Assembly (NCBI GenBank): GCA_031277475.1 | Contig: JAITMJ010000005.1 | Coordinates: forward strand, 1-62,200 | From: Flavobacteriaceae bacterium | GTDB lineage: Bacteria > Bacteroidota > Bacteroidia > Flavobacteriales > Weeksellaceae | Reading direction: 5' to 3' | DNA: 62,200 nt | In this document: piece by piece, positions 8,300-62,200 of the stretch | Numbering within the stretch: position 1 is the stretch's first letter | How the letters are laid out: each line of letters begins with the position of its first letter | Position numbers and translations under genes: made by a program | Notes under the pieces: generated by a model | What the model was told of the DNA's origin: nothing | Databases searched by the model: none | Seen by the model: the letters and a program-made list of their open reading frames with translations, nothing else

Positions 8300-9325
8300 T
8301 CACTTCACCGTTTTTGAAAGTTCGAGCATGGCTTCGATTGGTTTTAAGGCTTTCAGACGCAATTCTTCTTCGATGATAATTTCCGGAAGTTCGTATTTCA
8401 TACAGAGATAGAGTTTTTCCAGCGTGTTTCGTTTCATATAAAAACATTCGGAGCAGTTGCAACTTTCGTCGAAAACCAACGCCGGAATCAATGTTTTTTC
8501 GGGAGCGCGTTTTTTCATTTCGTGCAAAATACCTTCTTCGGTAGCGATAATGAATTCTTGGCAATCGTCTTTTTCCACATAATTCAACAATGCGGAGGTA
8601 GAGCCGATGAAATGTGCGAGTTCCAAAACCGCAGTTTCACTTTCGGGGTGTGCAATCAGTTTTGCGCCCGGATGTTCGGCTAATTGTTTCGCTATTCGCT
8701 CCATCGAAAACGCTTCGTGAACGATGCAACTTCCGTCCCAGAGAATCATATCTCGACCGGTTTTTTTCATCAGATATTTTCCCAGATTTTTATCCGGTGC
8801 GAAAATAATCGGTCTGTCTTTCGGCAAAGAATTGATGATGATTTCCGCATTGGAACTCGTAACGATAATGTCGCTTTCAGCTTTGGTTTCGGCGTTGCAA
8901 TTGATGTAAGTTGCAATTATGGCGTTCGGAAATTCCTTGCGCATTTTGCGAAGACCTTCGCCGCTGCAGCCGTCTGCCAAAGAGCATCCCGCCATTGTGT
9001 CCGGAAGAACCACTTTTTTTGCGGGATTCAAAATTTTTGCCGCTTCCGCCATAAAATGAACGCCGCAAAAAGCAATCATATCGGCGTTTGTGTCTTTTGC
9101 TTGCCTTGCCAATTGCAAAGAATCTCCGAGAAAATCGGCAATATCTTGAATTTCCGCCGGCTGATAATAATGTGCGAGAATGACGGCGTTTTTTTCTTTT
9201 TTAAGTTCCAGAATAGCGTTCATCAAATCTTTTCCCTTCGGAACCAATAAATCCAAATCCTTGAATTTCAAAAATCCGAAAACGGGAAGATTGGCTTTTG
9301 CGGTGTTTAAGGTTTCTGTGCTCAT
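8300..9325 (-). CDS. nadA: Quinolinate synthase A
   Basis: The product has 341 residues. NadA condenses iminoaspartate with dihydroxyacetone phosphate to quinolinate in de novo NAD synthesis and carries an oxygen-sensitive [4Fe-4S] cluster. The three expected cluster cysteines are present: Cys114 ([10 protein letters not shown]), Cys200 (WDGSC) and Cys294 ([12 protein letters not shown]). [15 protein letters not shown] near residue 51 and AHPESE at 225 are further family motifs. nadB and nadC are not in the window. A -7 box lies at 9376-9369, giving a leader of about 40 nt. The gene is divergent from the RND pump gene. Confidence 0.95.
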
Positions 9326-9368
9326 TTTTTTATTCTATGTATGATTTATTTTAATTTTTAAATTTTGA

Positions 9369-9376
9369 CAAAGTTA
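9369..9376 (-). promoter_or_regulatory. -7 box TAACTTTG of nadA
   Basis: A perfect TAnnTTTG on the minus strand, 43 nt before the nadA ATG. It overlaps a partial copy of the ACTTTGWCAAAGT palindrome found in other gaps. Confidence 0.6.
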
Positions 9377-9706
9377 TTCATATTTTCGGTCCTTCATCAG
9401 ATTACCGTAAAGTGCCTATTTCACGGTATTTAAAATTTCAACAAAGATAATACAACAAATCCAAACACAAGCAACTGATTATCAGAGATTTTATTTCTTT
9501 TGATTTTATTAATTTATATATTTGTCTAACAATTCACGCTTTCGTAAATTACTGATTTTCAGTCGATAAACTGCAATTTTTTGAATTGCTCTTTTATATT
9601 AATAAGTTTAAATTAGTTCAAAGTGTAATTCACCTAAATCACAAAATATTTTCCGGCTCTTTTCCTTTATGTAACATCTGTTACCAAAACTCCCATTTTC
9701 TCTCTA

Positions 9707-9714
9707 TAGTTTTG
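9707..9714 (+). promoter_or_regulatory. -7 box TAGTTTTG of the RND permease gene
   Basis: A perfect TAnnTTTG, leaving a leader of about 85 nt before the ATG at 9808. Confidence 0.6.
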
Positions 9715-9807
9715 CATCCGAAAAATTAGAACAATTCAAAGTTCCGTGTTCAAAGTTCAAAGTTTCCCAACCTTGAACCTTAAACTTTAAACCTTAAACA
9801 AAAAAAT

Positions 9808-12800
9808 ATGGAAAAAGGATTTGCAGGGCGTATTGCCGAGTTTTTTATCAATTCTAAACTCACCATTTTGTTGATGGTTGCGCTGATGATTATCGGTGCG
9901 TACAGTTCTACTTTGATTCCGAGAGAGGAAGAACCGCAAATCATCATTCCGATGGCAGATGTGATGGTAGGCTACCCCGGAGCAAATCCGAAGGAAGTTG
10001 AAAACAGAGTGGTGAAACCTTTGGAAAAAATTATTTCCAACATCAAAGGCGTGGAACACATTCATTCGATGGCGATGAACGGACAGGCGGTCATCATCGT
10101 TCAGTTTTATGTAGGCGAAGACACGGAAAGATCCTATGTGAAATTGTATGACGAACTGATGAAAAATAAAAATATTTTTCCGAAAGGCATTTCCGAACCT
10201 ATGGTAAAAACGCGTTCCATAGACGATGTTCCGATGTTGGGACTCACGCTGTGGAGCGAAAAATATGATGATTATGAACTTCGGCAAATCGGAGAAGAAT
10301 TGTCGTCTGAGATTAAAAAAATTAAAGATGTTTCGCTTACGAAAGTGATTGGCGGAAGAAATCGGCAGTTGCAAATCGTGCTCGATAAGGATAAAATGGC
10401 GGAACTGAATGTGGATGCGCTTTCCATTATGCAAATGATTCAGGCAAACAACGGAAGTTCACAATCGGGAACGTTCGATTCCGGCGATTCCGAATATCTG
10501 CTCACCACCGGACAATTCATCAATTCCGGCGAAGATGCGGAAAATTTGGTTATCGGAACTTCTCAAAATATGCCGGTTTATTTAAAACAAGTGGCAAGCG
10601 TTGCGGACGGTGCTTCCGATCCCGCAAATTATGTGAGTTTCGGCTATGGAAACACTACGGAAAACGGCAAGAAATTTCAATCCGAATATCCGGCAACTAC
10701 GGTTTCCGTCTCCAAAGTGAAAGGTGCCGATGCGATGAAAATCTCCGAACAAATTATACATAAAGTCGAAGAACTGAAAAAAACATTAATTCCCGATGAT
10801 GTTCATGTAGAAATCACCCGAAACTACGGCGAAACGGCATCTCATAAAGTTTCGGAATTGCTGTTGCATCTGGGAATCGCGATTTTGGCGGTAACGCTTC
10901 TCGTGATGCTTGCAATGGGCTGGCGCGGCGGATTGGTCGTGTTTTTTTCCGTACCGCTCACATTTGCGCTCACACTTTTCAGTTACTACATTTTGGGATA
11001 CACGCTGAACAGAATCACGCTGTTTGCGCTGGTTTTCGTGGTCGGAATTGTGGTGGACGACAGCATCATCATCGCCGAAAATATGCATCGGCATTTCGGA
11101 ATGAAAAAATTGCCTTTCAAACAGGCTGCGATTTATGCGATTAATGAAGTCGGAAATCCCACAATTTTAGCCACATTCACGGTGATTGCCGCCATTTTGC
11201 CGATGGCTTTCGTTTCGGGAATGATGGGTCCGTATATGTCGCCAATGCCGATTGGAGCGTCTATTGCGATGTTGCTCTCGCTGTTTGTGGCATTGACGAT
11301 TACGCCGTATCTCGGTTATCATTTATTAAAAGTAAAAGACGAAAAAAAACACAAGGAAGAGCAAGGTTTGGAAACCGGAAAAATTTATAAAATTTACAAA
11401 AAAATTGAACAGCCGCTTTTAAATTCAAAATCAAAAAGATGGACAATGATGGGCATTACCGTAGTTTTATTGCTGATTTCCGTATCTGCATTTTTCACAA
11501 ACCGGGTCGCCGTAAAAATGCTTCCGTTCGACAATAAAAATGAAATCCAAGTGGTGATTGATATGCCCGAAGGAACTACTCTGGAACGCACTGCCGCCGT
11601 TTCCCAAGACATTGCGCAATATTTGAAAACCGTTCCGGAAGTGGTGAATTATCAAACTTACGCCGGTTCGTCGGCACCGATTACGTTCAACGGTTTGGTT
11701 CGGCATTACGATATGAGAGGCGCCGCCAATACTGCTGATATTCAGGTTAATTTGCTTCACAAAGAAGATAGAAAAGAGCAAAGCCACGATATTGCCAAAA
11801 AAATTCGTCCCGAAATTCAAAAAATTGCAGCGAAATACGATGCCAATGTGAAAATTGTGGAAGTTCCGCCCGGACCGCCGGTTCTTTCTACGATTGTCGC
11901 CGAAATCTACGGTCCCGATTACGCCGGACAAATAAAAGTAGCCGAAGATGTGCAAAATATTTTGAAAAAAACCGATGATGTGGTAGATATTGATTGGATG
12001 GTGGAAGCACCGCAAAAAGAATTTAAACTGATTCCCGACAAGGAAAAAGCAATGCTGAACGGCGTTGCACCGCAACAAATTGTCGGAAACATCACCTATT
12101 TAATCGGTCAGCATCCGATTGGAAATCTTTACGACGAAAAATCCAACGATCCGGTAGAAATCGTGATGAAATTAAAAAATGCCGATAAAACCGATATTCA
12201 AGATATTACCGAATTGAAAATCAAAGGATTGCAAGGAATGATTCCGGCGAGTGATTTGGTGAAAATCGAAGAAAAAGAATTGGACAAAACCATTTACCGA
12301 AAAGACCAAAAACGCGTGGTTTATGTGCTTGCGGATATGGCGGGAGATTTGGAAAGTCCGGCGTATGCGATTTTGGGAATGGAAGAAAAACTGAAAAAAA
12401 TACAACTTCCGAGCGGCTACACGATGAACGAACTCTATATGAATCAGCCGGAAGACGAGAGCAATTATACCGTGAAATGGGACGGCGAATGGCAAATCAC
12501 GCTGGAAGTTTTTCGGGATTTGGGAACGGCGTTTGCGGTCGTCATCATCATTATTTATATGTTGATTGTCGGCTGGTTTCAAAATTTTAAAACACCGATT
12601 GTGATGATGGTTGCCATTCCGCTTTCGCTCATCGGAATTGTGTTGGGGCATTGGCTTTTGGGCGCATTTTTCACGGCGACTTCATTTATCGGAATGATTG
12701 CGCTTGCCGGAGTGATGGTGCGAAATTCGGTTTTGCTGATTGATTTTATTGAAATTCGATTAGCAGAAGGAATCCCGATAAAACAAGCCATCATCGAAGC

Positions 12801-52282: not shown

Positions 52283-52720
52283 TTATTTTTTGTATAAACT
52301 TTTTTTAAGTTCTGTTGTAGTTATACAAATGTCGTAACCTTTTGCTTTCAATCCGTTTTGTAATTGAATATCGGTTGTCCAAATTTTATGTTTGGTATAG
52401 AGATGTAATGCAACAAAAGCAAGGTCTTCCAAATCAATATCGCGTACTATTTTATAGGCTTGAACAACATCTTTTTTAGGAATGTCTTCCATATTGATGA
52501 TGCTGATTTTGGCAAGGAGCATTGTTAATTCGTTTAACTTTTCTTTCCTGCTTTTTTTCGTATTGTCCACAATTTCATCGATTTTGTCCCTAATTTCATC
52601 AATCAGAAAATCGGGTGCAAAAAACTGAATTTTACTTTTTGCGGTCAATATTTTAGCAATAATGCCTGAGGGTTTTTGTAATGCGCTGTAAAAAATATTG
52701 GTATCGGTAATGACGATCAT
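52283..52720 (-). CDS. PIN-domain nuclease toxin (VapC-like)
   Basis: The product has 145 residues. The first acidic residue of the PIN active site is Asp7 (ITDTNIFYS). Further acidic residues that fit lie near DEIRDKIDE (about residue 42), DLEDLAF (about 98) and WTTDIQLQNG (about 117). PIN toxins cut RNA. The ATG overlaps the stop of the small upstream gene by ATGA, as in translationally coupled toxin-antitoxin pairs. Confidence 0.88.
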   Translation of the reverse strand: MIVITDTNIFYSALQKPSGIIAKILTAKSKIQFFAPDFLIDEIRDKIDEIVDNTKKSRKEKLNELTMLLAKISIINMEDIPKKDVVQAYKIVRDIDLEDLAFVALHLYTKHKIWTTDIQLQNGLKAKGYDICITTTELKKSLYKK

Positions 52721-52881
52721 AAATTGTGCAATGCCAGCAGTCGTTTAGTAATGTTTTGATTGATCTCTTTTACAATCCGTACTTGTTTATTTTTTTGTGC
52801 CGAGTCTAATACTTTTTTATTTTTAGACTTTATCGTTTTGTTTTTAGCGGGTATTACAGGATTTGAAACCGTAGTTTCCAT
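52717..52881 (-). CDS. Small antitoxin-like protein of the PIN toxin pair
   Basis: The product has 54 residues from ATG 52881 (METTVSNPVIPAKNKTIKSK). The frame is open to 52959, but the -7 box TATATTTG (52915-52908) lies inside that extension, so 52881 is preferred. It is highly basic, with a C-terminal helix (KEINQNITKRLLALHNL) that could wrap the toxin. It is not similar to any family I recognise. Its 3' end overlaps the toxin start by ATGA. Confidence 0.7.
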   Translation of the reverse strand: METTVSNPVIPAKNKTIKSKNKKVLDSAQKNKQVRIVKEINQNITKRLLALHNL

Positions 52882-52907
52882 AAGAACAGATTTTAAATTT
52901 GATATTA

Positions 52908-52915
52908 CAAATATA
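52908..52915 (-). promoter_or_regulatory. -7 box TATATTTG of the toxin-antitoxin pair
   Basis: A perfect TAnnTTTG on the minus strand, 26 nt before ATG 52881. Confidence 0.6.
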
Positions 52916-53029
52916 CATTCTTTTTTTTCATTTGTGTTAGGTTTCCGAAGCCGTTTCAAATATACAAAATACCGGATTTTATTTATTATTGAGATTGCCG
53001 GACATTCATTTTATTTTATTCAGAAAAAT

Positions 53030-55644: not shown

Positions 55645-57468
55645 TTATAGTTCAAACTTCAACTGCATTTCTTTTTCTTTGTACAACTTGTAAACCGTTG
55701 GAAAATTTGTTTTACCCTCAATTTTCTTTATTAGGTCGCTCATTTCTTGTTTGAAAATTCCGATTGCCCATTCGTTACGATTAGTAATACGAAAAATAAA
55801 ATCAACATTGTCAGGTTGCCAATCGGTTGTAGTGTTGTTTTTTATACCAAATGCAACGCCGATTACAATGTTTTTCAGTTGCTTGTTTTCATCAATCACT
55901 TGCGCAACAAGTAATGTTTTTTTGAGTGCCGTTTTTAGTTTTTCATCGGTTTTGTAACGCAAAATCTTTTCCAAATCCTTTTCTACGCTTGATTTTGCAA
56001 ACATACCTTTGCTTTCGTTTAATATGACATCAATTTTTGAATGTGCCGGTGGAAGTGCAATTACATCGGGATATTCACGAGGTTGGGCTTTCCCGAGTTC
56101 CGGATTTGGCAAAACCGCACCGCCGCCTTGCGAGCCGGGATAAGAAACTGAAACGATTTGAAAACCGTTTGGAATTAAGATTTTATGAACAATGGTGTAG
56201 GTTACTTCGTCCTCATCAACTTCATTTGCGACTTCGATAATCGGAGTTGGTTTTGTATAATTTGAAAAACCAAAGTATGCCGAAAATGCAGGCAAGAAGT
56301 TTTTATTTGTTGAATTTACCAATTTTCGCTTGTCCCATTTTAAACATATTCCGTTGTGATTTAGATAAATTCCGTCTAAAAAATAAGCCAATGTCATCAC
56401 AACTTTATTGTTTGTGATTTTGTTTTTATGTTTTTCCCAAACAGGTTGAAAATCTATAACTTCGTTTAATGATTTTGCATTTTTTGCAACCGTTTTAAAT
56501 TCGTCTATCAACCAATCTGGCATTCCGCCTTTGTCCATTTCGAGGGCGGTTTTCAATTTTTCACGCAATAAATCAAGCGTTGTCATATCTTGTTTCATCA
56601 GTTCGTTTCCTCTTGGGCGAACAAGTGCATAAATCCCAAAAACCTGTCGGGTTTCAGAAAACAAAAACGAAATGAATGTCAAAATCCCTCTGTCCGGATC
56701 CATTGCATGACTGAAACGATTGATTTTTGCCGCAACAAAATCGGGCTTTACGAAATAGCGCAATTTATTCAGATTGTCACTTCTGCGATTTTTCCACGCT
56801 TCTAACAATTCTTTCGCACCCGTTGCCGAATCAACTTGTTTGCGGTAAATTTGATAGGATTTATCTTTTTTCAATTCGGCAAGGCTTTTTGAAAACCAAT
56901 TTTTTTCAGATTGCACAAAAGCCGAAACCGCATTTTGCAGTGTTGCCGTAAGAATGGCAATATCGGGCGGACAAGACGGATATTTTGCGTTGCGTTGAAG
57001 TGTGTATTTGTTGTCTTTTCGGGTTTTCCAATCTGCAATGATATAGCCTTCATATCCGACTTCTTCAATAAAAATTTTCGGTGTCGAAAACGGATTGTAG
57101 TTTGCTCCGCCAAATTCTTTTTCAGAATATTTTTCGCCTGATAATTTTAAATAATATGCGCCTGAAAGATAGGCGGCAACTGCGCCGTAAGTACGTTGTA
57201 ATTCGTGGTCTTCGGTGGTAACGGCTTCTGTAAATTCAATGAGGATTAACGGATATTCTTTATCATTGACAATTCCTGTAATCAAAACGTCGGGTGTTGT
57301 CATCGTTTGAAGTGCGGAAATTGAGCCATCGTTCAAATCTTGTGCGGTTTTTGCTCGCTTTACCAAAACTATTTCAACCATTTTTTTATCAATAACTTTT
57401 TCGATTATCGGCTTGATGTAGTTTTCTGCTTGTTCCAAGCATTCGTAATATATTCTGATGTGTTTCAT
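55645..57468 (-). CDS. Putative restriction nuclease with two PD-(D/E)XK-like regions
   Basis: The product has 607 residues. Near the N-terminus PD at 59-60 is followed by IEFTEA at 77-82, a PD-(D/E)XK-like core in which the usual lysine is replaced by Glu. Near the C-terminus PD at 467-468 is followed after 16 residues by NESKG (E485, K487), which fits the classical PD-(D/E)XK pattern better. The middle (KNWFSKSLAELKKDKSYQIY and so on) has no recognised domain. Its start immediately follows the methyltransferase stop. The pair could form a restriction-modification system, with this as the cleavage subunit; assignment is from motifs and context. Confidence 0.7.
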   Translation of the reverse strand: MKHIRIYYECLEQAENYIKPIIEKVIDKKMVEIVLVKRAKTAQDLNDGSISALQTMTTPDVLITGIVNDKEYPLILIEFTEAVTTEDHELQRTYGAVAAYLSGAYYLKLSGEKYSEKEFGGANYNPFSTPKIFIEEVGYEGYIIADWKTRKDNKYTLQRNAKYPSCPPDIAILTATLQNAVSAFVQSEKNWFSKSLAELKKDKSYQIYRKQVDSATGAKELLEAWKNRRSDNLNKLRYFVKPDFVAAKINRFSHAMDPDRGILTFISFLFSETRQVFGIYALVRPRGNELMKQDMTTLDLLREKLKTALEMDKGGMPDWLIDEFKTVAKNAKSLNEVIDFQPVWEKHKNKITNNKVVMTLAYFLDGIYLNHNGICLKWDKRKLVNSTNKNFLPAFSAYFGFSNYTKPTPIIEVANEVDEDEVTYTIVHKILIPNGFQIVSVSYPGSQGGGAVLPNPELGKAQPREYPDVIALPPAHSKIDVILNESKGMFAKSSVEKDLEKILRYKTDEKLKTALKKTLLVAQVIDENKQLKNIVIGVAFGIKNNTTTDWQPDNVDFIFRITNRNEWAIGIFKQEMSDLIKKIEGKTNFPTVYKLYKEKEMQLKFEL

Positions 57469-58590
57469 TTATTTTTTCAATATTATCAAATGCTCTTTCT
57501 TGTTTTTCTGTGCAAATGTAGGATTAAAAATTCGAGAGTGTTCCGACAAATCAGACGAAATAATATTGCATATTTCAAACCCGATTTCAGGAATAAAATC
57601 TTTTATAACCTTATCTATTTTGATGTGTTCTTTTTTAATAACGCTATCGCCAATAACGATAAATGCCAATCCGTCTTTTTTTATTAAACGATACATTTCG
57701 GAAAAACATTTTTTCAAATCTACCGTCCATTGCGCTGCGGGTTTTTTCAAACTCGAATATTCTCGGCGCGAACCGATTTCATTGTATTGTGCATACTGAA
57801 CATCCAAATCAAGCCAACGTTTGCGAAATTTGTGATACAAATAATAATCATAAGTATTGGCATAAGGCGGCGAAGTGATAATAATATCAACGCTTTCGTT
57901 GTTGAGCATTGACAAGTTACGGCTGTCGGCATTTAATAATTTCAAGTAACCGTCCGCATTTATTTTTTTAGAATATTCCGCAATTCGAGTTAAATATTCA
58001 TTGGCTCTTGTGAGAAACAATCCGAAAGTAAAGTTGTCCGGAACATTTTTGTTTTTTGCTGCAAATCTTGTGTCGCTATCTTGGTTTGAAACCCTTACAA
58101 TGATTGAGGATAAAACGATTTTCAAAAAGTCTTTTACATTTTCATTGTCGAGTTTTGTAATCAGATTGAGAATATGCGTTAATTCTTCGGCTACATTCAT
58201 TTGAAACCAATGTTCCAAACCTTCAATTTTTTTTACTTCGATAGTCGGACGTTTCATTTTCCATTGCAAATCCTCACATGCAATTATGTTAAGGAATAAT
58301 TTAATTTGCGTAAGTTCTCTTTCGGAAAGCGGCGTTGCTTTTACTTTTGAGAGCAAAGATGATAAACCGTTTACATCTACTCCAATTGCGTTGCAACCGA
58401 ACAATCGAGCCTCCACAAGTGTTGTTCCCGAGCCACAAAAAGGGTCTAAAACGGTTGCGTTTTTTTGTGCAAATTGTTTTAGTATTGTGTGCGGCAACTG
58501 CGGCGGAAACTTTGCAGGATAAGGATGCAAAGAATGCGTGAGATACATTGTATCGCTGTTACCGAAGTTGAAGTTTATGTTGTAGTTCAT
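57469..58590 (-). CDS. Site-specific DNA methyltransferase (adenine-N6 or cytosine-N4)
   Basis: The product has 373 residues from the chosen start MNYNINFNFG at 58590. The longer frame to 58665 overlaps the end of herA by about 60 bp, and no clear ribosome site supports it. Motif I DPFCGSGTT (49-57) binds SAM, and motif IV TSPPY (239-243) is catalytic; the order X-I-IV is a class alpha-like layout. Its stop touches the nuclease start. Amino-methyltransferases with SPPY modify A-N6 or C-N4; which one is undecided. Confidence 0.88.
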   Translation of the reverse strand: MNYNINFNFGNSDTMYLTHSLHPYPAKFPPQLPHTILKQFAQKNATVLDPFCGSGTTLVEARLFGCNAIGVDVNGLSSLLSKVKATPLSERELTQIKLFLNIIACEDLQWKMKRPTIEVKKIEGLEHWFQMNVAEELTHILNLITKLDNENVKDFLKIVLSSIIVRVSNQDSDTRFAAKNKNVPDNFTFGLFLTRANEYLTRIAEYSKKINADGYLKLLNADSRNLSMLNNESVDIIITSPPYANTYDYYLYHKFRKRWLDLDVQYAQYNEIGSRREYSSLKKPAAQWTVDLKKCFSEMYRLIKKDGLAFIVIGDSVIKKEHIKIDKVIKDFIPEIGFEICNIISSDLSEHSRIFNPTFAQKNKKEHLIILKK

Positions 58591-58603
58591 AGTTTCTATT
58601 TGT

Positions 58604-60532
58604 CTAAATTTCCACATTAAAATCTTTTTCCCTAAACCAATTCTTACTAATCTCGTTATTATCACTTTTCGGTTTTGGGTCGGCTGTATTTACTTTGAAT
58701 GTTGTTGGCAAATTAACGGCGTGACCAAAAATTAAAGCGTGTTGAGTAGGAATTGATGGCAAGCGTTTTAATATTGTGTCCGAAATATGCGGTGTGATTT
58801 GTCGAATATGTGATAAATCTTCGGGATTTTGTATTCGGTGAACAATAAAATTACTGCATTGCGATAAGACTGTACGCGACAATTCGCTTGGTCTTTGTGA
58901 AGAAATCAACAAAAACATACCGTATTTTCGCCCCTCTTTTGCAATGCGTTCAAATATTCTGTTCGCATCGCCAAATACTTTTCCCGATTCGGTGGAAATA
59001 TAGCGGTGTGCTTCTTCCAAAACAAGATTTACAGGGAATTTATTTCTATCTTTTGCTTTTCGTAATTTTTCAAAAATCATTCTTGCTAATACGCAAGATA
59101 TAACTTCTACCATTTCATCATTTGCGGAATTTAAGTCAATAATTATTATTTGAGATTTTTTGGTGTTTTGAGTGATTCCTAAAAATTGAGATAAAAACTC
59201 GTTTTGATTTACTTCGTTGTGGTTTTTTGTCAGGAATTTAAAATCATCTCTGTTTTGTACGCTTTTGTATCTTGTAAGTAGTGAGGAACAATAATCTCTA
59301 ATTTGTTTATTACCGTGAAATTCTTCATATAACAAAGCTGTTTCAAGTGCTCTACCTAAATCTTCAAAATTAAATTTTTCAGAATTGTAGATAGGGTCTA
59401 TTATAATATCTTCTTTAATAAATCTACGAACTGCATTTTTAAATATATCTTCTTCGTTTGGTGGAAAATTTCCATATTGCGCATTGTATTTAGTAAAATC
59501 AATAGAAGGATTAAATTTTGCAGATTCTAATAAGGATATGATTCTTTGTCGTTTTGCAACAGGACTTTCCCAGTGCTCAAATACATACATAATACTGCAA
59601 GCGTATATATGTTGTAACGCTTCGGACGATAAATTTTGTGTAAAGCCTAACGCATTTCGCAATATTGGCAGCTGTGTTCTTTCGCTTGCTTGCAGTAACA
59701 ATGCCCATTCATCAATATTCAAAAACCAATGTGGCAGTACAAATTTTTCTGCATTTTCTTCATCTGTTTCGGGGATTTCGTCTATTGTAAAGTTTTTTAC
59801 CTCAATATCATTATTGTTTTCGGCAAGTTTGCTGAAAGCCTGCCGATATTCGCCATTTACATCAAAGAAAATAAATGTACTTCCTGTTGCACTGTATTCT
59901 TTATATCTGTACAAAGTTTGCAGCATTGAAGCAATCGTACAAGATTTTCCGCTACCTGTATTACCCAAAACTGCTGAATGACTGCCGAAAAATTTATCAA
60001 TATCTATTTTTACATCATAATCGGGGAAAATACTTGCACTTCCAATCGGTAATGAAGTATAGCGATTTTTACATTGACAATTTCCTTTTCTACATTCTTC
60101 TGTTTCTTGGCAACTTGTTTCAAAAGATTTGTTTGTCTTGAAAATAATATCTAATTCTTCTTCCTTAATGTAGAGAACATCGGAATACAAAGTAGGATAA
60201 ACACTTACGCCAAAATCAAAATTTTTATTGTTAATTGTTCCAATCGGAATAACTTCTAAAAACTTGCCTGTCTGTATTTTACTTAAAATTTGTTCGGTTG
60301 GATTTGAAAAAGGTACATTCAAGTCTTTTTCTCTAACACCCGAAACCTCTGCAACTAAATAATAGTTCTGATATGGAACAATCACATAACTATTCAGTTG
60401 TGCAAAATAATGAATGTCGTCAAAACCGCTTACATTAAAGTTTTCCAATCCGCTTAACAATTCAACTGTAAAACGGTCGGAATTGATTGCTACGACTTTG
60501 CCAATCACTCGCTGTTTATCTTCTTTTGTCAT
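58604..60532 (-). CDS. HerA-type DNA translocase/ATPase (DUF87), SIR2 partner
   Basis: The product has 642 residues. The Walker A GNTGSGKS is at 190-197 and the Walker B region is LVLEEAHRY (503-511), with ISSQRPSEL following. A four-Cys insertion (C141, C147, C152, C154) may bind zinc. HerA ATPases pump DNA as hexamers. In the SIR2-HerA system they form a large complex with SIR2. The gene overlaps the SIR2 gene by ATGA (60529-60532). Confidence 0.93.
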   Translation of the reverse strand: MTKEDKQRVIGKVVAINSDRFTVELLSGLENFNVSGFDDIHYFAQLNSYVIVPYQNYYLVAEVSGVREKDLNVPFSNPTEQILSKIQTGKFLEVIPIGTINNKNFDFGVSVYPTLYSDVLYIKEEELDIIFKTNKSFETSCQETEECRKGNCQCKNRYTSLPIGSASIFPDYDVKIDIDKFFGSHSAVLGNTGSGKSCTIASMLQTLYRYKEYSATGSTFIFFDVNGEYRQAFSKLAENNNDIEVKNFTIDEIPETDEENAEKFVLPHWFLNIDEWALLLQASERTQLPILRNALGFTQNLSSEALQHIYACSIMYVFEHWESPVAKRQRIISLLESAKFNPSIDFTKYNAQYGNFPPNEEDIFKNAVRRFIKEDIIIDPIYNSEKFNFEDLGRALETALLYEEFHGNKQIRDYCSSLLTRYKSVQNRDDFKFLTKNHNEVNQNEFLSQFLGITQNTKKSQIIIIDLNSANDEMVEVISCVLARMIFEKLRKAKDRNKFPVNLVLEEAHRYISTESGKVFGDANRIFERIAKEGRKYGMFLLISSQRPSELSRTVLSQCSNFIVHRIQNPEDLSHIRQITPHISDTILKRLPSIPTQHALIFGHAVNLPTTFKVNTADPKPKSDNNEISKNWFREKDFNVEI

Positions 60533-61833
60533 TTTAGCAAATTCTTTAGATTATTGATTGTTGTTTCCATTTTTTTATCCAAATCTTCATTGGTTAAATC
60601 GGGCAAAATTTCATTTACAAATCTTTCAAAAAAATGCAATGGTTGTTTGCCGTCTTGTTTTTCGCCAATTATCCAAATTCTTGGATCATTTAGTTCAAAC
60701 AATTTATAAATATTGTTCTTTTCTTCATTTTCTTGCCCTTGATTTTTGATTATAGGTTCGCCAATAATTATCAATCTGAAAGAGGGAATTGTAAACGCTT
60801 GAAAAATTAAATTGTTAATATGTTCATCGCTGAAGCTGTAGCCAATGGTAACGAGTATATTATTGTTTATCATCAGTTTTCTTTGAAACTCACGGAACAA
60901 ATCGGAATACGGACTTCCAAAACTCGCATTGTATTTTAGTGGGGTTGGATAAATCATTGTTGCTTCATCTTTCAAAGTGTCGAAAGTTGGCTCTTGTATT
61001 TCTTTGACTTTAAATAATTTATTTTCGCCAACCGATTCAATCCAATTAACAGAACCGTGTATTTTATACAAATAAAAGAAGTTGTCAATTACACTCCATT
61101 TGGATTGCGACAAGTCCATTTTTTCAGAAAGAGCATAATTAAAAATTGTAGGATTGAAAAATTTGCTTATTCCGCCAGTAAATCCATTTACATAGTGTAT
61201 CCCCAGCAAATCCATTGCTTTTTCGGAATACAAGTCATAGTTTGTTGTAAAAATATTTAATCGTGGTAATGTTGAGTTTCGAGATAACAATTTCCTGTAA
61301 AATTGCTTATAAATATCAAGTAATGGTTTATCTAATTGGTTTTGAATATTATCTTCATTGAGTATCTTTTTCAATAGGAAGTTTCTTGTTTCTTTGATAA
61401 CATCATTTATTCTTTTTTCAGTTTTTTCCCAGAGTTCGTTTTTTTCAGAATTAGAATAATAAAATGAAAGACTATGGAGAGTTGAAAGGAACGTTTCAAG
61501 ATTTGTTTTGAAATTATCTTCTTCCAAATTGATTTTGAAAAATAATTTAAGCCATCTTTTATATTTTGAAAAAATATCCAAAGTATAAAATTCTTCTGCT
61601 AATGGGCGCATTACCGGAATACCGACTTGAATACATTCTTTTTCTTCCGTTTCTTCTTTTTCTATTTCAAATGATGAACAGCCACTACCCAAAAGGAATG
61701 ACAAATTTTTATTGTCAAGCACTTTTAGAAAAGCGTCTTGGATTGGCTTGATGTCTGAATTATTATTTTCAGCTACCGACTTTCTTTCTGTATCAAGTAT
61801 GTTTTCTTTGCCTTTGTAAAAGAATATATTCAT
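60529..61833 (-). CDS. SIR2-family protein, NADase/deacetylase-fold partner of HerA
   Basis: The product has 434 residues. The NAD-binding motif SFLLGSGCSS (45-54), TTNYD (196-200, N198) and KIHGSVNW (257-264, H259) are the core SIR2 elements. A C-terminal extension (from about 290, PTPLKYNASFGSPYSDLFRE) continues to residue 434. SIR2 of this type breaks NAD+ and, with HerA, aborts phage infection (established for SIR2-HerA systems). The gene lies 19 bp after the partial methyltransferase and overlaps herA. Confidence 0.92.
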   Translation of the reverse strand: MNIFFYKGKENILDTERKSVAENNNSDIKPIQDAFLKVLDNKNLSFLLGSGCSSFEIEKEETEEKECIQVGIPVMRPLAEEFYTLDIFSKYKRWLKLFFKINLEEDNFKTNLETFLSTLHSLSFYYSNSEKNELWEKTEKRINDVIKETRNFLLKKILNEDNIQNQLDKPLLDIYKQFYRKLLSRNSTLPRLNIFTTNYDLYSEKAMDLLGIHYVNGFTGGISKFFNPTIFNYALSEKMDLSQSKWSVIDNFFYLYKIHGSVNWIESVGENKLFKVKEIQEPTFDTLKDEATMIYPTPLKYNASFGSPYSDLFREFQRKLMINNNILVTIGYSFSDEHINNLIFQAFTIPSFRLIIIGEPIIKNQGQENEEKNNIYKLFELNDPRIWIIGEKQDGKQPLHFFERFVNEILPDLTNEDLDKKMETTINNLKNLLK

Positions 61834-61852
61834 ATCATTATTTATTTTCTAT

Positions 61853-62200
61853 TTATTTAATTTTCCTAAACACCACCACAAACGAGCAATTTTGATTGGT
61901 ATATAAAACACTCGGATAACCCAAAAGCACCAATCTGCGTTGTCCGGTTTGGTCCCAAATTATTAAATCGTGGTATTTCCAGCCCACTTCTTCGCCTGCT
62001 CTTGCCAAATCGGAATGAAACGGAACGTAAGGAATTTTGTTTTTTGTGTCTCTGTAATCTTTCACCACCCAACAAGAATAGCCGCCTGCTTTTGTAATCG
62101 CCAAATTATCTTTCAGAATATTTTTTATTTGCTCCAAAAATTCGGGATAAGGCAAATTTCCAAAATCGTTTTCTTCTTGGCTGTATTGTTTTACGGTGCT
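61853..62200 (-). CDS. DNA methyltransferase, C-terminal part (truncated by window edge)
   Basis: The frame remains open to the window edge; the first residues visible are STVKQYSQEENDFGNLPYPE. The segment CWVVKDYRDTKNKIPYVPFH then WDQTGQRRLVLLGYPSVLYT and SFVVVFRKIK matches the C-terminal half of DNA amino-methyltransferases of the kind seen in type II systems, in particular the V-x-D-x-R strand. The catalytic SPPY motif would lie outside the window. It is the first visible gene of the defence operon. Confidence 0.75.
   Translation of the reverse strand, partial: STVKQYSQEENDFGNLPYPEFLEQIKNILKDNLAITKAGGYSCWVVKDYRDTKNKIPYVPFHSDLARAGEEVGWKYHDLIIWDQTGQRRLVLLGYPSVLYTNQNCSFVVVFRKIK

Follow-up and report, generated by a model that had tools for sequence, protein, structure and literature searches.

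A SIR2-HerA anti-phage pair separating two methyltransferase genes in a predicted type II restriction-modification operon with a BsmI-like nuclease

Protection by the SIR2-HerA pair of Vibrio requires both SIR2 catalysis and HerA, is accompanied by depletion of NAD+, and persists after deletion of all other genes of the island in which the pair resides (PMC11559045). Other defences are known from within restriction-modification (RM) operons, TgvAB (PMC11411939) and DarTG2 (PMC12255303) each being embedded between hsdS and hsdR of a type I operon. Exploring a 62,200-nucleotide stretch of a Flavobacteriaceae bacterium (positions 1 to 62,200 of contig JAITMJ010000005.1, assembly GCA_031277475.1; hereafter the window), we found a SIR2-HerA pair positioned between two DNA methyltransferase (MTase) genes that, together with a restriction endonuclease (REase) gene, would constitute a type II RM operon. 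Like TgvAB, DarTG2, PrrC and the Campylobacter rlo genes, the pair forms a second, self-sufficient defence lying between genes for modification and restriction; unlike the defences embedded in type I operons, its host operon is of the two-MTase type II kind and its cargo is a predicted NADase pair. Payne et al. reportedly described such 'guilt-by-embedding' of defences in 2024. Our literature search, outside of which that preprint lay, found no paper placing SIR2-HerA inside an RM operon; given that embedding as such is already published, it is therefore the two-MTase type II host operon that we count as new.

The five genes are co-directional on the minus strand between positions 55645 and 62200 of the window, in the order MTase A (MTA), SIR2, HerA, MTase B (MTB) and REase. 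The 3' part of MTA (M1; 61853..62200), open at the window end, is followed after 19 bp (61834..61852) by the SIR2-family gene (60529..61833; 434 amino acids), which shares a 4-bp ATGA overlap with the gene of a HerA-family ATPase (58604..60532; 642 amino acids). A gap of 13 bp (58591..58603) separates the HerA stop from the ATG of MTB (M2; 57469..58590), and the REase gene (55645..57468; 607 amino acids) starts directly after the TAA stop of MTB. The coordinates agree with a first-pass annotation of this DNA, which had described five co-directional genes with overlaps or gaps of less than 20 bp, an ATGA overlap of SIR2 and HerA and a nuclease start touching the MTase stop. It had also noted no described precedent for this gene order, and the exact union is indeed unique to the window among the loci found. 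That the five genes are chance open reading frames was rejected, as all five have homologues and family matches.

The trio of MTA, MTB and REase was found at four other loci, in genomes G255 (L052), G071 (L053) and G455 (L075, where MTA is cut by a contig end) and on a Helicobacter plasmid (L066). At all four, MTA and MTB abut without SIR2-HerA, mostly overlapping by a few bases (1-4 bp at the position of our right junction), so the window carries the only interrupted trio of the five, and the interruption falls exactly at the stop/start junction of MTA and MTB. The GC content of SIR2 and HerA is 0.297 and 0.329, respectively, compared with 0.353-0.383 for MTA, MTB and REase; being AT-richer than the RM genes that flank it, the pair fits the expectation for an insertion. 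The locus thus presents what characterizes embedding, namely a complete second defence between same-strand RM genes, operon-like gaps and an uninterrupted operon elsewhere.

The pair itself is well defined. SIR2 belongs to the SIR2_2 family (PF13289, 46 bits; PADLOC SIR2, 434 bits) and HerA to the DUF87/HerA family (PF01935, 84 bits; PADLOC HerA, 821 bits), and both proteins match distant solved chains. Alignment of SIR2 with nine relatives revealed that the motifs GxGCS, TTNYD and HGS are invariant or nearly so, residues N198 and H259 within TTNYD and HGS being invariant, while the Walker A motif GNTGSGKS and the LEEAH motif of HerA are invariant in 12 relatives. These features support the assignment of the genes, recognized as a known anti-phage pair in the first-pass annotation, to a Nezha-type SIR2-HerA pair with intact catalytic motifs, for which NADase activity is expected from the family. 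The likeness to SIR2-HerA/Nezha extends to a SIR2 carrying GxG, TTNYD and HGS, a HerA carrying Walker A and B motifs and the overlap of the two genes. The pair differs from that system in sitting within an RM operon and not alone, and in belonging to a clade (PADLOC PDLC04084/04102) that is distant from those with solved structures and scores below the NCBIfam cut-offs. The possibility that HerA was truncated by the insertion was rejected, as the HerA of a relative (L058) ends at the same point.

Both MTases are members of the N6_N4_Mtase family. MTB, an N6/N4-type enzyme with DPFCGSGTT and TSPPY motifs, shares 64-66% identity with its counterparts in L052 and L053; its start codon was set from homologues and DNA, and a GTG start at 58665 was rejected because the resulting 62-bp overlap with HerA is unsupported by the alignment, the homologues starting near the ATG at 58590. 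The REase matched no Pfam family, and an hmmsearch of PDB sequences with the REase alignment gave no match; PADLOC assigned it to REase_II (124 bits). Its structure model is good only for residues ~1-215 (mean predicted local distance difference test score 46 overall, poor beyond ~220), and residues 1-219 of the model matched four BsmI entries with Z scores of 12.0-12.8 (Foldseek E 6e-6 for BsmI), the next unrelated entry scoring 7.5. The sequence similarity between REase and BsmI is marginal (E 0.03). In the C-terminal half, D468...E485-x-K487 is conserved and looks like a second PD-(D/E)XK site; because the full-length model is poor past residue ~220, this second nuclease domain is proposed from the sequence motif only. 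BsmI has an isoschizomer, Mva1269I. The latter is a single-chain, two-site enzyme acting on an asymmetric sequence (PMC4081073). Given that the REase is BsmI-like and that BsmI is an asymmetric-site enzyme, two strand-specific MTases are plausible, and the trio may well be a type II system for an asymmetric site with one MTase per strand, as the first-pass annotation had proposed and as the uninterrupted trios support. The N-terminal BsmI fold and the two MTases, presumably one per strand, are what one would expect of BsmI-like type IIS/IIT systems, the fused helix-turn-helix (HTH) of MTA and the interruption by SIR2-HerA being points of difference.

The full sequence of MTA connects the operon to a candidate regulatory site. 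The window ends with its contig (C83), and the terminal 119 bases match the opening 119 bases of contig C146 exactly, with no further match elsewhere in the assembly. Reading MTA across this overlap in a continuous frame (remainder of the gene in contig C146, locus L003, 120-923) completed the MTase left partial by the first-pass annotation, yielding a protein of 383 amino acids with HTH_17 and N6_N4 DNA methylase domains, whose identity to the intact homologues of L052 and L053 is 76%. Directly before its start (L003 924-981, contig C146) lies a perfect 15-bp inverted repeat, ATAAAAGTATCAATT / AATTGATACTTTTAT, with a 28-bp spacer, a level reached by none of 500 shuffles; the repeat spans a Bacteroidetes-type -7 box, TAAATTTG, by the consensus as generally known. 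The repeat core AGTATCA/TGATACT occurs two times before MTA in L052 and four times in L053, both of which have the same HTH in MTA, and is absent before MTA of L066, which is without HTH. The co-occurrence of HTH and operator core, in a small set of homologues, suggests autorepression by MTA of an operon that now includes SIR2-HerA. Methyltransferases with an N-terminal HTH are known among regulators of RM operons. As with the C proteins and RptR, the HTH protein is encoded first in the operon and repeated operator half-sites lie over the promoter; the difference is that HTH_17 is here fused to an N6/N4 methyltransferase and that the operator is predicted from sequence. A scan for sigma-70 promoters and terminators within the operon gave background level only.

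We consider it fairly probable that a portable SIR2-HerA back-up cassette was inserted into a two-MTase BsmI-like type II RM operon and that it is co-regulated with this operon via the HTH of MTA. The cassette would have entered exactly at the stop/start junction of the two MTase genes, so that one promoter and one transcript, set by MTA, would give rise to two layers, one of restriction and one of SIR2-HerA. The expression of the five genes would be tuned by MTA, the HTH_17 of which is predicted to bind the inverted-repeat operator over the promoter. The MTases and the nuclease would ensure that unmodified incoming DNA is cut, while infection would trigger SIR2-HerA, the HerA-dependent NADase would deplete NAD+, and phage escaping restriction would be stopped. 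Of the ideas put forward in the first-pass annotation, layered backup is still the best, though as a general relation and not as one specific to these enzymes. The comparative data gave no RM-specific partner of SIR2-HerA and no sign of a physical or specific functional interaction with these RM enzymes.

To place the locus among its relatives, we collected all HerA matches, flanks included, in 395 Bacteroidota genomes and defined a run as uninterrupted co-directional genes with gaps of <200 bp, counted over at most four genes on either side. RM or bacteriophage exclusion (BREX) genes were present in the run at 11/37 SIR2-HerA loci, five of these 11 having the pair enclosed by type I RM genes, and at 0/23 HerA loci without SIR2; a 24th SIR2-less locus (L184), a BREX locus whose upstream side is lost at a contig end, was kept outside the count. 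Because the SIR2-less control is largely chromosomal, AbiEii was added as a second defence-gene control and had RM/BREX genes in its run at 1/40 loci by phmmer labels and 2-3/40 by Pfam (SIR2-HerA vs AbiEii, Fisher p 0.001 to 0.017). Pfam bore the labels out: among 70 proteins flanking SIR2-HerA the families N6_Mtase (9), Eco57I (6), Methylase_S (5), HsdM_N (5) and HSDR_N (4) were detected, none of which is among the most frequent families flanking SIR2-less HerA. The host systems of SIR2-HerA comprise type I (L084, L154, L158, L161, L166, L170), type IIG-like (L041, L043, L165) and type III (L049) systems, a lone MTase (L163) and BREX (L046). On a HerA tree of 55 rows the RM label changed 12-13 times, close to the shuffled mean of 14.2, indicating that the association was repeatedly gained and lost rather than inherited. 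In addition, at L046 and L050/L184 a SIR2-HerA clade seems to be integral to a BREX-like operon (BrxC-MTase, SIR2-HerA, and further on PglZ-BrxL; names read from sequence).

These counts bear on one alternative, that SIR2-HerA came to lie beside RM genes through the clustering of defence genes alone and without consequence. The union is unique among the five trio loci and the close HerA relatives, the partners of these relatives vary freely, and the type I slot described below takes many cargos, all of which a chance neighbourhood would explain. Such a neighbourhood accounts less well for an insertion placed exactly at a gene junction with gaps of 19 and 13 bp, for the excess of SIR2-HerA over AbiEii, another defence gene, in RM runs, and for the five sampled loci with type I RM genes flanking the pair on both sides, and we regard it as unlikely. 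The first-pass annotation had proposed beforehand that the union be taken as chance if pair and trio occur mostly apart: the specific union does not withstand this comparison, but chance is too weak an explanation of the general association, as SIR2-HerA occurs in RM runs far above both controls.

A second alternative arises from the position of the pair between modification and restriction genes. Two of the type I loci, L084 and L170, share one type I family (HsdM 74%, HsdR 62% and HsdS 46% identical), yet the SIR2-HerA pairs that they carry in the same slot between hsdS and hsdR share only ~24% identity. This slot holds SIR2-HerA in L084, L161, L166 and L170, and in L170 it carries AbiE as well. 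Other members of the same family carry OLD with GmrSD-like genes, OLD with others, HipA, or RelA/SpoT with AAA and PD-(D/E)XK genes at this position. Every near family member seen in full (L084, L170, L226, L228, L230, L231) has a different defence- or toxin-like cargo, and in distant members (L233-L235) the slot is empty. Judged by gene content, the hsdS/hsdR slot is a cargo bay and SIR2-HerA one frequent cargo.

A slot between modification and restriction genes, recurring in several type I loci and here and filled by two very diverged SIR2-HerA pairs, could point to a guard relation, in which the working RM system silences or sensitises SIR2-HerA and a phage that disables restriction provokes NAD+ depletion. 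PrrC offers the model: the linked type I enzyme EcoprrI keeps it silent, and Stp of phage T4 activates it (PMC2610378). However, the partners of SIR2-HerA (BsmI-like, MvaI-like, type I, BREX and type III) are unrelated, and a shared protein contact is therefore hard to imagine; most pairs have no linked RM system, the same type I slot also holds OLD, HipA and RelA/SpoT genes, and the Vibrio pair protects with the other island genes deleted (PMC11559045). A guard relation thus has its appeal, but the freely varying partners and the autonomy of the Vibrio pair speak against it, and we hold it to be improbable. A further idea, in our view improbable, is that SIR2-HerA, when nested in type I, II, III or BREX operons, serves as a general alarm of restriction failure, in which a common cue from a failing or overwhelmed restriction system, for instance free DNA ends or the threading of unmodified DNA by HerA, would lead to NAD+ depletion. 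If true, the operon would encode a two-stage response and not two independent defences.

The neighbours of the closest relatives indicate how freely the pair combines. The nearest SIR2-HerA pairs, with HerA 73-88% identical, each have neighbours other than the trio: the pair lies upstream of an MTase and an MvaI/BcnI-family REase (L055), between HsdM-HsdS and HsdR of a type I system (L084), before a KAP-NTPase/QatABCD-like set (L058), after KAP/AAA-like genes (L056), after a DUF1016 nuclease (L082) and inside a conjugative element (L057), the Qat label, the KAP label of L056 and the conjugative label being read from sequence. In the RM-linked relatives of the L084 and L055 type, HerA is 78-88% identical to that of the window. 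Farther away, on plasmids of alphaproteobacteria and actinobacteria, pairs whose HerA is 45-51% identical had no RM neighbours among the genes seen. Single-protein scans of viral contigs found no close relatives of MTB or HerA, and phage records gave no HerA match; an alignment scan of viral contigs detected 44-54% SIR2-HerA pairs in prophage-like contigs, with no RM neighbours seen. In one contig with Mu-like phage genes (L085, ~8725-12085) a SIR2-HerA pair with 54% HerA identity appears to be a phage-borne defence. In three alphaproteobacterial plasmid pairs (L060, L061, L062) an RNase_T/3'-5' exonuclease gene overlaps the end of HerA by ~14 bp, and its product is a possible third subunit. 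The left junction in the window carries, before the SIR2 start, the leader TAATGATATG, which is also found in L084, and L055 and L058 carry TAACGATATG; the contexts of this leader, of the general form TAA[C/T]GATATG, are otherwise unrelated, and it perhaps marks the left edge of the mobile unit.

Given that the trio stands alone in 4/4 other loci and that the SIR2-HerA clade has other, unrelated neighbours, the five-gene union is not a conserved system, and the dedicated merged system entertained in the first-pass annotation is not supported. A merged five-gene machine, with HerA feeding DNA to the nuclease, for example, or the MTases marking self for SIR2-HerA, would suit the tight gene packing and the way in which HerA/FtsK translocases recur alongside nucleases in other systems against invaders (as discussed in PMC12839542), but is very unlikely given that its halves are separable in relatives, with four trios without SIR2-HerA and many SIR2-HerA pairs without RM.

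Several points weigh against the insertion of a co-regulated back-up cassette as we propose it. The exact five-gene order was found at one locus only, the completion of MTA depends on the 119-bp contig overlap, and 26/37 SIR2-HerA pairs are not in an RM run. Moreover, the RM/BREX labels stem from phmmer seeds partly taken from the SIR2-HerA loci under test, the Pfam check having raised the AbiEii count from 1 to 2-3/40; a few sampled loci are near-duplicates; the SIR2-less HerA control consists largely of chromosomal and not defence genes; and a sample of Bacteroidota only may not represent other phyla.

As to the surroundings, clpC lies upstream of the operon and a gene for a WG-repeat protein begins 26 bp past the nuclease gene. 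About 2.7 kb downstream of the nuclease, a gene for a PIN-domain-like toxin, preceded by a small partner gene (window 52283-52959, minus strand), resembles a toxin-antitoxin module.

Embedded defences are a recent theme, described mostly from type I RM, Hma and BREX loci, and the locus described here adds a two-MTase type II operon to the hosts concerned. The HTH-methyltransferase and its inverted-repeat operator yield a specific hypothesis on how the whole operon is regulated, and the matched loci, with the same RM system with and without the cargo and with the same cargo in different RM systems, are suited to testing co-regulation against layered protection and coupling. SIR2-HerA is a single kind of effector pair that has come into modification operons in separate, independent events, two very diverged pairs in the same slot of one type I family among them. 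Together, the data suggest that SIR2-HerA repeatedly enters DNA-modification operons and that such operons may act as docking sites for back-up defences.

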